Part shown: positions 41,370 through 49,706 of the stretch, in pieces
Numbering within the stretch: position 1 is the stretch's first letter
How the letters are laid out: every line of letters begins with the position of its first letter
DNA from: Gottschalkia acidurici 9a
Lineage (GTDB): Bacteria > Bacillota > Clostridia > Tissierellales > Gottschalkiaceae
DNA: 64,000 nucleotides
NCBI RefSeq assembly: GCF_000299355.1
Contig: NC_018664.1
Coordinates: 496,001-560,000, forward strand
Reading direction: 5' to 3'
The notes under the pieces: model-generated
What the model was told of the DNA's origin: nothing
Database searches by the model: none
Seen by the model: the letters and a program-made list of their open reading frames with translations, nothing else
Program-made: the position numbers and the translations under genes

Positions 41370-42120
41370 TTAAAAACATAAAAAATTAATTTTTCTGTTG
41401 GACTAAGATATTTTAGACTTGAAAGTGATGACTACTCAGTTGTTAAAATTACAGAAATATGTAATGAACCAGTTATGATAGCAGAAATTATAGTTACTTT
41501 TTAGAAAAAGTAAAAAAATTGGATATAATGGAAGGGGAAATTTATATCATGTCGAATTTAAATTTAAAGTAGAAATATGCTAATTTTAGTTTGTATGTTT
41601 CTTTTAGTATCTAACATTCCTTATGTTCGTGGTATATTTTAAGACTTGGAGAGCAAGAGTTCTAAGAGTTGATTATAATATGATGGTTTTTCACCAAAAA
41701 TAGAGGTTACTATTTATGGCTCAGAAGATAATGAACTGAGAGAAGCATTGCTAGATGAAGATGAGAAATTCCATTATGACATGAGTTAAAGTGTTGATAA
41801 GACTATTATCGATGAAGGAATGGATATAAAGCAAAATATGAATAATAGCAATAAATTATTTAATGGATATGGGCATTGTAGATTACTTTTTAGTGATATA
41901 TGTAATGCTCTGTACTACTATATATTACGGAAATAAACATTTATATTTTATTGTTAAGACTATGAAAAGTTAATTTTAGGCATACATAATTCTACAAAAT
42001 GAAAAATAAGTTATGAAAATTTTACTAGTTTATCTGCAAGAATCTTCTTTCATTATTGACAAAGAATTGCAATTAGGGTAGTATATTAAATACATTACAT
42101 AATGTTACAAAAATATTGAG
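41370..42120. other. Degenerate region without an intact gene
   Basis: Short broken frames such as GLRYFRLESDDYSVVKITEI (about 41398-41500) and KIEVTIYGSEDNELREALLD (about 41700-41760) suggest remnants of one or two small genes; no family recognised. From about 42050 the sequence becomes the leader of the purine operon. Confidence 0.4.
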
Positions 42121-42222
42121 GACTTATAATATATTTCGCTACATAAGAGATGTCAACATAGTTGTTATAAGTATAGATAGTTACATATAATTTAAATCTT
42201 TACTGTTATAACTGGAATATTA

Positions 42223-42336
42223 TTGACTATTTCTTGTAAGTTGGGAAGCAAGGAATAGTCAATTATATATTAAAAAATTCTTCAGGTGCAATATGCAGGA
42301 CGGGAAACCTGGCTCACCAGATAAGGTCAGTGCACC
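42223..42336 (+). promoter_or_regulatory. Structured leader of the purine salvage operon, RNA class not recognised
   Basis: Two strong structures in a row. Hairpin 42223-42236 with 42249-42262 pairs TTGACTATTTCTTG to CAAGGAATAGTCAA (14 bp). A compact element closes with GGTGCA (42285-42290) and TGCACC (42331-42336) and encloses two inner hairpins (CAGG/CCTG; CACC/GGT). It ends 13 bases before the ribosome site of the adenine deaminase gene. A further 8-bp stem (ACTTATAA 42122 with TTATAAGT 42172) lies upstream. Layout suits a riboswitch or attenuator; it does not match the purine aptamer consensus I know. Confidence 0.5.
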
Positions 42337-42361
42337 AAATATTTTATATGGAGGGTTTAAT

Positions 42362-44143
42362 ATGGAAAAGACAGTAAACAATCTTAAAACTTTGATACGC
42401 GCAGGTAGGGGGATAATACCCGCAGATAAAGTAATTTTAAATGGTACACTCATAAATGTAATGACTAGTGAAATTTATCCAGCAGATATTGCTATTTATG
42501 GTGATACTATTGTAGCGACTGGAGATGTGAAGGACTATATTGGCTCAGAAACTGAAGTTATAGACGCTACAGGCAAATATCTTTCTCCGGGATTAATAGA
42601 TGGACACATTCATAGTGAATGCAGCAAACTTAGTATTACAAGCTTTGCTAAAGCAGTAGTTCCTTGTGGGACAACAAGTATTATTTCAGGTTTAGATGAA
42701 TACATTTCGGTTTCAGGACTTGAGGGACTTAAAGAGATTTTTGAAGAAATTAAGCAGACACCTTTGAAAGTATTTTGGGGTGCACCTTACAAAACACCGT
42801 ATACAATTCCAAAATCTACAGTTGCATTTAATTTTGACCCATCAGTTCATGCTGAAGTTCAAAAATGGGAAGAGTGCTTTGGAGTATGGGAAGTAGTAAG
42901 AGAGTTCATAATAGAAGAAGATGAAGATACTTTAGGTGCAGTTGTAGAAGCATATAAAAATAGATTACCTGTATTTGGCTGCGCGCCAATGGCTAGAGGA
43001 AAAGATTTAAATGGATACTTATGTTCTGGAGTAAGACTTGATCATGAAAGCTATGATCATGAAGAAGTTGTAGAGAAAATGAGAAAAGGTATGCATATGC
43101 TTATTCGTGAATCATCAGTTACGCACTTCTTAGAAGAAAATATTAGAGCTATTACAGAAGTCAATCCAAGAATGGCAAGACGTGTGAGTTTCTGCACAGA
43201 TGATGTTACGGCTACTGATGTACTTAACAATGGCCATTTAGATAATGTTGTTAGATTAGCAATTAAAGCTGGTGTTGAGCCAATGACAGCGATTCAAATG
43301 GGCACGATAAATAGTGCGGAGGCATATCGAATAGATCATCTTATTGGATCAATTTCTCCAGGAAGATTAGCGGATATACTAATAGTTGATGATCCAGAAA
43401 AGTTCAACGTAGAAGCTGTTATTAGTAATGGTAAACTTGTTGCAAGAGATAAAAAACTTACCTTTGAACTTAAAGCACCAAAAAGAAGTCCTATTTTAAG
43501 TAGTGAACTAAAGTGTAAAACAACAACTAAAGAAGATTTTGAATATAAAGTTGATATTAAAAATGGACAAGCAAAAGTTCTTTCTATGGATGTAAAAGGA
43601 CCATTTGTTAGAAAAAGAAGAGATGTACTTTTAAAAGTAGAGAATTCAGTTGTACTTCCAGATATTGAGCAAGATGTTGCGATGGTTTCGGTTCTTGAGA
43701 GGTTTGGACGAAATGGGAATAAGTCCTTAGCTTTTTGTTCAGGTTGGAAACTAAAAAAAGGAGCTATGGCATCGTCTGCTGCACCAGATGATAACAACAT
43801 AATTGTAATGGGTGTTGATGCAGAAGATATGTCAATTGCTGTAAATCATTTAATTAAAAATGGTGGAGGACAAGTTGTTGTATCAGATGGAGAGATTGTT
43901 GAATTTCTATCACTACCAGTTGGCGGGATTGTTAGTGACTTAGAGCCTGAAGAAATTGCATATAGAGAAGATCTTCTGACAAAGGCTGCTCGTGGTTTAG
44001 GGTGTGAATTACCAGAGCCTTTAATGTATATGTTCTTTCTACCTATAACAGCTATACAAGATTATGCTATTACAGATGTAGGTCCTGTTGACTGTGTTGC
44101 ACTTACAACATTTGATCCTATTATTGAATTAATAGAGAAATAA
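42362..44143 (+). CDS. ade: Adenine deaminase
   Basis: Protein of 593 aa, usual length for AdeC. Amidohydrolase barrel with metal motif GLIDGHIHSECSKLSI (most AdeC have HIHIESS) and FCTDDVTATDVLNNGHLD, plus the C-terminal adenine-deaminase domain (ALERFGRNG-type segment VLERFGRNGNKSLAFCSG and KKGAMASSAAPDDNNIIVMG). Converts adenine to hypoxanthine and ammonia in the cytoplasm. ATG 42362 follows TGGAGGG; an in-frame ATG at 42293 lies inside the structured leader and is rejected. Followed by a purine permease, so the pair imports and deaminates purines. Confidence 0.88.
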   Translation: MEKTVNNLKTLIRAGRGIIPADKVILNGTLINVMTSEIYPADIAIYGDTIVATGDVKDYIGSETEVIDATGKYLSPGLIDGHIHSECSKLSITSFAKAVVPCGTTSIISGLDEYISVSGLEGLKEIFEEIKQTPLKVFWGAPYKTPYTIPKSTVAFNFDPSVHAEVQKWEECFGVWEVVREFIIEEDEDTLGAVVEAYKNRLPVFGCAPMARGKDLNGYLCSGVRLDHESYDHEEVVEKMRKGMHMLIRESSVTHFLEENIRAITEVNPRMARRVSFCTDDVTATDVLNNGHLDNVVRLAIKAGVEPMTAIQMGTINSAEAYRIDHLIGSISPGRLADILIVDDPEKFNVEAVISNGKLVARDKKLTFELKAPKRSPILSSELKCKTTTKEDFEYKVDIKNGQAKVLSMDVKGPFVRKRRDVLLKVENSVVLPDIEQDVAMVSVLERFGRNGNKSLAFCSGWKLKKGAMASSAAPDDNNIIVMGVDAEDMSIAVNHLIKNGGGQVVVSDGEIVEFLSLPVGGIVSDLEPEEIAYREDLLTKAARGLGCELPEPLMYMFFLPITAIQDYAITDVGPVDCVALTTFDPIIELIEK

Positions 44144-48338: not shown

Positions 48339-49706
48339 ATGAGAAAATTAAAGTTATGGATTTTAATGTTAATTACTACTATGATTTTTACTTCGACTAT
48401 TGGCTTTGCGGATAATGCTCTGGTTATGGATAGTTATCAAATAGCAAGTAATAGTCAAAACAATCAACAGCAAAGTAATAGCTATGATTACGACATACTT
48501 ATAAAGTCAGGAAATGTGTATAAAGAGGGCAATAAATTAGATATGGCAATTAAAGATGGAGTTATAGTTGCAGTTAAGCCTAATATAAAAGGAAGTGCTA
48601 AGTTAAATATAAATGCTGATGGAAAATTTATTTCACCAGGGTATTTAGATACACATAATCATTTAGGTAAAACCAACATTGATACAGGTAAAGAATCTAA
48701 GACTTTAATGGAGGCTGTAAAAGATACTGAAGAATATTGGGAGAACTTTAAAGATAGCGAACAAATAAAAAAAGATGTAAAAGAAAGAGCAGAAAAAACT
48801 ATTATAAGAATGATTAAAAATGGAACTACTGGAATAAGAACAAATGTAGATTTACATATTGAGGCTATAGAAGCTGTACACGAGCTAAAAGTTAAATACA
48901 AAGATTATATTGATATACAAATTGCTACACATATAACAGATGAGGATATAATAGGCCCAGCAATAGAAAAAGGATGGATAGATTGTATAGGTGCTTATGC
49001 ACAACCTGAATGGAACTCTATAGAAAATGGAACTATAGATAAAGCTTTTGAGTTAGCACAAAAATATAATTTACCAATAGATATCCATGTAGATGAATCT
49101 GATGAGCCTAATATAGACTGCTTTCTATATATTATTGACAAGACTATAGAGACTGGAATGCAAGGAAAGGTAACTGTAGGTCATGTAACTGCACTTAGTG
49201 CAGTTGATGACGACGTAGCTGCTAAAGCAATAAAGAAAGCTGCAGAATCAGGAATAAATGTAACTTCACTTACATCTTGCAATATGTATCTAATGGGTAG
49301 AAGTGACACTGGGATTATACGTCGTGGTCCTACAAGAGTAGATGGGCTGTTAAAGGCAGGTGTTACGGTAAGCTATGCTTCTGATAATATTAGAGATCCA
49401 TTCAGACCATTTGGTAATGGGGATATGCTAGAAGAGGGATTACTTACTGCACAAATTATTCAGTATGGAACTAAAACGGATCTAAATACAGTTTATGATA
49501 TGGGAACATACAATCCAGCTAAGGTAATGGGATATACTAATTATGGACTAAAGGTTGGAGATAGAGCAGATATAGTAATACTCGATGCAGAATCTGCAGC
49601 TGATGCACTAATAGGTCAAGCAACTAAATTATATGTAATAAAAAATGGTAAATTGACTGTTAAAAATGAAAAAAAATCTACTATACTTGATATAGATTCA
49701 AAATAG
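48339..49706 (+). CDS. Exported cytosine-deaminase-like amidohydrolase
   Basis: Protein of 455 aa. Signal peptide of about 24 residues (LWILMLITTMIFTSTIGFA, cleavage likely after GFA). Then an amidohydrolase close to cytosine deaminase/isopropylammelide hydrolase: metal motif LDTHNHLGKTN, His in LPIDIHVDES and KVTVGHVTAL, and Asp in VSYASDNIRDPFRPFGNGD. The NxxDPF-type signature fits cytosine deaminase CodA. Export of such an enzyme is unusual because family members are normally cytoplasmic. AAGGGGG precedes the ATG. Could act on pyrimidines or other cyclic amidines outside the cell. Confidence 0.8.
   Translation: MRKLKLWILMLITTMIFTSTIGFADNALVMDSYQIASNSQNNQQQSNSYDYDILIKSGNVYKEGNKLDMAIKDGVIVAVKPNIKGSAKLNINADGKFISPGYLDTHNHLGKTNIDTGKESKTLMEAVKDTEEYWENFKDSEQIKKDVKERAEKTIIRMIKNGTTGIRTNVDLHIEAIEAVHELKVKYKDYIDIQIATHITDEDIIGPAIEKGWIDCIGAYAQPEWNSIENGTIDKAFELAQKYNLPIDIHVDESDEPNIDCFLYIIDKTIETGMQGKVTVGHVTALSAVDDDVAAKAIKKAAESGINVTSLTSCNMYLMGRSDTGIIRRGPTRVDGLLKAGVTVSYASDNIRDPFRPFGNGDMLEEGLLTAQIIQYGTKTDLNTVYDMGTYNPAKVMGYTNYGLKVGDRADIVILDAESAADALIGQATKLYVIKNGKLTVKNEKKSTILDIDSK

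Follow-up and report, generated by a model that had tools for sequence, protein, structure and literature searches.

A conserved leader RNA of purine salvage genes, without a match in Rfam 15, may be a metabolite-sensing ON riboswitch

The purine riboswitch family RF00167 comprises guanine, adenine, xanthine-II and 2'-dG classes, which follow a rule of conserved junction nucleotides around the pocket and a pairing base at position 74 (PMC11477304). The NMT1 motif (xanthine-I riboswitch) is found on purine degradation and nucleoside transport genes, and is described as a two-stem RNA with conserved junctions that occurs in Proteobacteria and acts as an OFF switch (PMC7373994). PRPP aptamers occur in tandem with guanine aptamers (PMC5912903, PMC7266159). 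In guanidine-IV and Gd4v RNAs, which are ON switches, a loop pairing competes with a terminator (PMC9788692, PMC11611296); their two hairpins are joined by a pseudoknot, the 3' one being the terminator, and they lie mainly on sugE, MATE, GNAT or transaminase genes (PMC9788692).

We identified a conserved RNA element in the leader of an adenine deaminase-type gene (ade) in the window, that is, the whole stretch of 64,000 nucleotides of Gottschalkia acidurici 9a that was analysed (Table 1). No Rfam 15 family reached its gathering score anywhere in the window; a permissive scan of 41900-42450 gave a best E of 2.9, which we take as chance, and a scan of 40 of 74 related ade loci returned only a tRNA and a 6S RNA. 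The element shares with RF00167 its position in leader RNA, a three-way junction, purine salvage genes and a terminator or Shine-Dalgarno (SD) output. It differs in that its conserved nucleotides are those of the P2 loop and of the 5' strand outside P1, namely AAATTC and the core GGACGNGAARCC, rather than junction nucleotides around a pocket. Neither the window nor the 40 ade loci hold a gathering-score match to RF00167, in keeping with the view of the first-pass annotation that the leader does not fit the purine aptamer, and in other leaders both occur next to each other as distinct elements.

The remaining families of Rfam 15, NMT1, ykkC/PRPP and preQ1 included, were likewise not reached by the motif at gathering score. 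The likeness to NMT1 lies in the purine gene contexts, and the difference in the two-stem OFF-switch architecture described for NMT1 (PMC7373994). The PRPP riboswitch (ykkC subtype 2b) with its guanine aptamer resembles the present leaders as a two-input arrangement on purine genes (PMC7266159), but the new motif has no Rfam match to it and is found on salvage and import rather than de novo synthesis genes. Rfam might have missed a distant relationship to a known class, guanidine-IV or Gd4v for instance, and both of these also pit a loop pairing against a terminator with ON logic (PMC9788692, PMC11611296). We consider such membership very improbable, as the new motif is set apart by the published descriptions of these classes, not by model score: it forms one closed three-way junction, no long hairpin 5' of AAATTC is shared among 40 loci, and all 13 newly found sites (see below) lie on ade, the importer or a truncated importer ATPase. 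The motif was not found in the main-text literature covered, including passages of PMC7736828, PMC9295807, PMC9971707, PMC11566853, PMC8632094, PMC11109978, PMC6429828 and PMC8040213; it may have been listed earlier without an Rfam entry.

Table 1. Features of the conserved element and of the genes that follow it (window coordinates).
Feature	Position	Strand	Basis or remark
Conserved RNA element, whole motif per models R1 and R2	42275..42342	+	R1 72.2 bits, E 2.9e-14 (the window is one of R1's building sequences); R2 64.3 bits, E 9.3e-10
5' segment AAATTC	42275..42280	+	In nearly all copies; proposed pseudoknot strand and part of the anti-SD (proposed off state)
Anti-SD AAAUUCUUCA	42275..42284	+	Predicted off-state partner 42349-42358 (minimum-energy fold)
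P1a, 5' strand	42285..42290	+	Partner 42331-42336; double changes in all 6 model pairs
P1b, 5' strand	42294..42295	+	Partner 42328-42329; RNAalifold on A2
P2 hairpin	42296..42311	+	CAGG 42296-42299, loop ACGGGAAA 42300-42307, CCTG 42308-42311
P3 hairpin	42316..42327	+	ACC 42316-42318 with GGT 42325-42327
P1a, 3' strand	42331..42336	+	GGTGCA/TGCACC closing stem; covariation
SD region UGGAGGGUUU	42349..42358	+	Exact sequence, minimum-energy fold, duplex energy
ade, adenine deaminase-type amidohydrolase (regulated gene)	42362..44143	+	PF13382 and PF01979
Membrane permease, 528 aa	44260..45846	+	Family shared by 28 of 41 loci (window counted) within the flank

The first-pass annotation had described the leader as three consecutive structures, and all three are present in the sequence: an 8-bp stem ACTTATAA/TTATAAGT (42122-42129/42165-42172), a hairpin TTGACTATTTCTTG/CAAGGAATAGTCAA (42223-42236/42249-42262) with 14 pairs including one G-U, or 16 when extended, and the structure closed by P1a, after which the SD GGAGGG begins at a distance of 13 nt. 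The third is real and conserved; the first two were rejected as parts of the element because they are not conserved in 40 related loci. Specifically, a blastn comparison of 42100-42272 with the 40 related motif loci gave one 14-nt match only (E 0.41), and the longest stem in the 80 nt before AAATTC of these loci has 11 pairs (10 or 11 in six loci) versus 16 in the window. The conserved element begins 10 nt 5' of the closing stem, with AAATTC, which thus lies outside P1, and its expression platform extends to the SD at 42350-42355. A promoter-like site at 42162-42191 is weak, with nine such sites in 500 bases versus 3.7 expected by chance; if it is used, the RNA would begin after the 8-bp stem. 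The 16-bp hairpin (42220-42267) lies between this possible promoter and the element, lacks a T-run and has no comparably long counterpart in the 40 related loci. A long in-frame ORF opens inside the element (ATG at 42293) and is taken as accidental, since the spacing from core to ade varies without keeping the frame (46, 51, 52, 53, 55, 56, 57, 66 nt and more).

The leader as a whole (42100-42365) folds to -58.8 kcal/mol (z -2.86), a value that none of 200 dinucleotide shuffles equalled. The 3' element alone (42275-42365) is ordinary by energy, with a z of -1.42 and 16 of 200 shuffles folding as well; it is established by covariation. Related copies were compared in a structure-blind MAFFT alignment (A2) of 19 well-aligned copies chosen from 33. 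This alignment supports P1a, P2 and P3, with 91.4% of cells paired versus 26 to 44% with slid partners, and contains 15 double-change cells versus 4.1 in shuffles, none of 500 being as high; RNAalifold run on it adds P1b. Two further alignments (A3, A4) were made by fitting to the model, in the case of A4 the first model. Among the 39 copies of A4 there are 65 double-change cells versus 13.6 +/- 3.2 in shuffles (a count not reached in any of 500), distributed over 14 of 17 pairs.

P2 is the most conserved part, with 99.3% of cells paired, two of its four pairs invariant and its loop nearly so; being almost invariant, it shows changes only in its two outer pairs. P3 has double changes in four of four model pairs (79.5% of cells paired). 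P1b has two pairs in the window and three in most copies, takes C-G, U-A and U-G forms across loci, and is paired in 89.3% of cells. Conservation and covariation in the leaders of related ade genes are thus strong. An AT-rich leader of the ordinary kind whose hairpins arose by chance, or a site acting at the DNA level, would agree with the unexceptional fold energy of the 3' element, but the helix covariation against two controls and the near-invariant loop across distant groups leave this explanation with hardly any probability.

A candidate pseudoknot joins U42278, U42279 and C42280 of the 5' segment with A42306, A42305 and G42304, that is, UUC with GAA of the P2 loop (L2). Its sole compensatory event is in the second copy of L088, where CUC faces GAG. 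A relaxed scan for other triples gave eight sites with a matching non-GAA triple, among which only this copy looks genuine, and 205 non-GAA hairpins without a matching triple. The importer copy of G570 (L166:1094-1161) carries AAATAC, which breaks the pseudoknot, and has one broken P2 pair, with P1 and P3 kept. On these comparisons, pairing of AAAUUC with L2 is likely but unproven.

A protein scan with ade yielded 74 related loci. The stretch upstream of the start was examined in 66, the other eight being either without the start or distant; in one of the 66 (L101) this stretch falls within the gene. The core GGACGNGAARCC occurs within about 500 nt upstream in 40 of the 66 loci, and in 39 of these 40 (the exception being L068) it is preceded within 110 nt by AAATTC. 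Variants of this segment are AAGTTC in L144 and the AAATAC of the G570 importer copy. By record title, the carriers are mostly Clostridia, together with Desulfoluna and other Desulfobacterales and one metagenome-assembled genome each of Fusobacterium, Spirochaetia and Coriobacteriales, and the loop and 5' segment are near-invariant across these distant groups. In three of the 26 loci without a core at ade (L048, L058, L080), a copy heads a transporter operon that continues into ade. Some leaders contain tandem copies of the motif itself: two in L042, three cores in L075 and four in L038. In L038 (2010-2480) the four stand before one ade, three of them followed by T-runs and the last lying by the start codon without a terminator.

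Searching 39 whole genomes of the ade loci (L050 not included) with R1 gave a match at E <=1 in 31, mostly at a single site at ade, and at an importer operon in G427 and G407. R1 gave no match at this level in the other eight, including the Anaerotignum-type L061, L065, L067 and L098, in which the core is present by pattern; with R2, L061 scored no better than E 0.081, and L065, L067 and L077 were missed. Genome counts are thus lower bounds. In the window's own genome, the sole R2 match besides the element has an E of 0.995 and is antisense to an ORF. R2 searches around six carriers found 23 sites in 20 of 1,178 genomes, with filters that lose weak matches: 3 of 348 genomes in the family of G397, 4 of 206 in that of G396, 1 of 250 in that of G407, 5 of 197 in that of G394, 6 of 61 in that of G413, and 1 of 116 in the order of G405. 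The weak matches L145-L149, L174, L176, L177 and L178 (E 0.038 to 0.995) were rejected as chance, lying inside ORFs or without supporting context. An exact-pattern search of 391 genomes of the window's class matched 7, versus 15 with the reversed-pattern control, which shows only that the motif is rare in that class.

The product of the window's ade scores 377.8 bits against TIGR01178, below the cut-off of 472.5, and its nearest solved structure is named Adenine deaminase 2. A second ade homologue follows ade in all 40 other motif loci and is absent from that place in the window; that of L046, the one locus scanned, scores 631.5 bits with TIGR01178, above the cut-off. The permease that follows in the window has no Pfam match up to E 1. 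About 4 kb past ade, the window also encodes a cytosine deaminase-like amidohydrolase with an N-terminal signal-like sequence (48339-49706). Within the 2.5 kb flanks of 41 loci, only the second deaminase and the permease are widely shared neighbours, and no upstream gene family in the 14 largest neighbour clusters is common to more than three loci.

Ten of the 23 sites found with R2 belong to the sequences of the model, having come to it through ade, so that their context does not count as independent evidence. The 13 new sites comprise 10 before ade, two before an importer ATPase (G570, G1536) and one before a truncated importer ATPase (G1536). The importer of G407 consists of an ATPase, two BPD_transp_2 permeases and a PnrA-like Bmp protein, and tblastn located these four genes, in unchanged order, under the motif in G427, G1536, G414, G1605 and G570, giving six genomes with a complete importer operon under the motif. 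The operon runs into ade in all of these except G570, where ade lies 616 kb from the importer and each has its own motif copy, so that two non-homologous targets are present. The element is thus a conserved structured leader before non-homologous genes of one pathway, as is the case for riboswitches. In G1536 a third motif copy with a terminator (L164, G1536:C1:3065187-3065246, minus strand) precedes the truncated importer ATPase and is apparently a decayed duplicate.

These contexts also bear on whether the leader is bound by a protein, an antiterminator or translational repressor that would recognise the L2 hairpin and AAAUUC, and is not a small-molecule aptamer. The core is compact, and a protein could recognise a hairpin of this small size with its invariant loop, together with a short single strand. 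We regard this explanation as unlikely, given that no regulator gene is conserved beside the motif in the 2.5 kb flanks of 41 loci, and that the sites are few per genome, lie on purine genes in distant groups and occur in tandem with RF00167.

The tandem was detected with Rfam in four of the six importer leaders, where an RF00167 purine riboswitch precedes the motif in the same orientation by 136 nt in G407, 103 in G427, 106 in G1536 and about 110 in G1605; RF00167 is absent from the stretches scanned in G570 and G414. A terminator-like hairpin separates the two elements in both tandem leaders scanned. The base of these RF00167 copies aligned to pocket position 74 is C, the guanine-class base (PMC11477304), although a one-base insertion near position 74 makes this specificity uncertain. 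The window's own genome has two classical purine riboswitches (G000:C2:2041489-2041590 and C2:31629-31730), both far from ade.

An arrangement of this kind could also be read as a riboswitch for PRPP or another signal of the nucleotide pool, by which salvage enzymes and the importer would be turned on when PRPP is plentiful, with guanine as a second input. The known PRPP-guanine aptamer tandems (PMC5912903, PMC7266159) are matched here by RF00167 in tandem before the importer. Most copies directly control adenine deaminases, however, which makes an adenine-like inducer simpler than PRPP, and the motif has no ykkC-type or other Rfam match; we give the PRPP reading a small chance.

Expression platforms were surveyed in 40 leaders, the spacer being measured from core to start and each SD pairing compared with 200 shuffles. 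The spacer is 57 nt or less in 18 leaders and 66 nt or more in 22, of which 20 have a run of at least five T. In nine of the 18 short-spacer leaders the SD pairs with sequence at or just 5' of AAATTC with a strength reached by <=8 of 200 shuffles; these are the window, L049, L097 and six Desulfoluna-group loci related to one another. L032 and L033 follow with 23 and 20 of 200, and the other seven (L034, L037, L038, L050, L076, L079, L088) have no pairing that differs clearly from shuffles (46 to 132 of 200). Long-spacer L040, L043 and L046 also show SD pairing at <=8 of 200. The window's anti-SD/SD duplex has an energy of -7.7 kcal/mol versus a shuffled mean of -4.1, with seven of 200 shuffles as strong. 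Since the minimum-energy fold places the SD in a pairing with the conserved AAAUUCUUCA, the translational control suggested by the first-pass annotation is likely in the window; its proposal of an undescribed or variant riboswitch is partly supported, by the conservation and covariation and by the lack of an Rfam match, its two upstream stems excepted.

Terminators were surveyed in 40 rows, without a shuffled control. The terminator stem takes 2 to 4 bases of the P2 5' strand at 10 sites and four bases of the P2 3' strand at six sites, the latter in Anaerotignum-type leaders. The count of 10 derives from 13 rows with at least a two-base overlap with the 5' strand, from which L159, L160 and L143 were dropped for a wrong T-run; L056, L164, L165 and L038 at 2437 had a wrong T-run too and were counted as without overlap. 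Fourteen of the 40 rows lack any terminator/P2 overlap. In leaders of the Lachnospiraceae form, P1 doubles as the terminator and shares at most one base with P2 (0 or 1), so that switching may go in either direction there. On paper, platform and aptamer exclude each other at the 16 terminator sites and in the window; such exclusivity is not evident in the Lachnospiraceae form or in the seven short-spacer leaders named above.

The reuse of AAAUUC or P2 by alternative pairings in many, not all, loci suggests an ON switch, as these pairings oppose the aptamer. The opposite direction would have the ligand stabilise P1, as terminator in Lachnospiraceae or as an SD-hiding outer helix in Clostridium, with repression of the operon by a product, for example hypoxanthine or guanine. 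P1 does run into the T-run in the Lachnospiraceae form, and an anti-SD lying mainly 5' of AAATTC is compatible with P1 to P3. An OFF switch nevertheless seems improbable to us, because a P2 strand is lost to the terminator at 16 sites, and AAAUUC is wholly or partly taken up by the anti-SD in the window and in the Desulfoluna group.

Given the structural and contextual comparisons above, we propose, with a probability of roughly 0.65, that the element represents a rare, unlisted class of cis-regulatory RNA and acts as an ON riboswitch that controls purine salvage in response to a metabolite. Its ligand is probably related to purines, since the element recurs before purine-breakdown and purine-uptake genes in distant bacteria. 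In the proposed mechanism, the aptamer would be the three-way junction of P1a/P1b, P2 and P3, with L2 (ACGNGAAR) probably docking with the upstream AAAUUC and thereby forming the ligand site. When ligand is absent, AAAUUC or a P2 strand would be diverted: in the window, AAAUUCUUCA is predicted to pair with the ade SD and block translation, and in other species the P2 strand would be taken into an intrinsic terminator. When ligand is present, we infer that the aptamer would hold AAAUUC and P2, and the gene would be expressed. Adenine or a close purine is the likeliest ligand, with PRPP or another nucleotide-pool signal as a possibility.

A more specific version of the ON-switch proposal is tentative, and we hold it with well under even confidence. 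The element may constitute a second, structurally unrelated class of riboswitch for adenine or a close purine, a compact pseudoknotted three-way junction that turns on genes for adenine deaminases, a permease and a PnrA-type importer. Together with the guanine-type riboswitch in the importer leader it could form a natural two-input gate, which would allow expression at low guanine in the presence of the new ligand.

The motif would add a family that is absent from Rfam 15. With a clear pathway, two unlinked targets, two kinds of platform and a tandem with purine riboswitches, this riboswitch candidate lends itself to a direct search for its ligand among a short list of compounds. Should it sense adenine, a base that the classic purine fold also recognises would have a second riboswitch solution; should it sense PRPP or another signal, it would show how anaerobes gate purine salvage.
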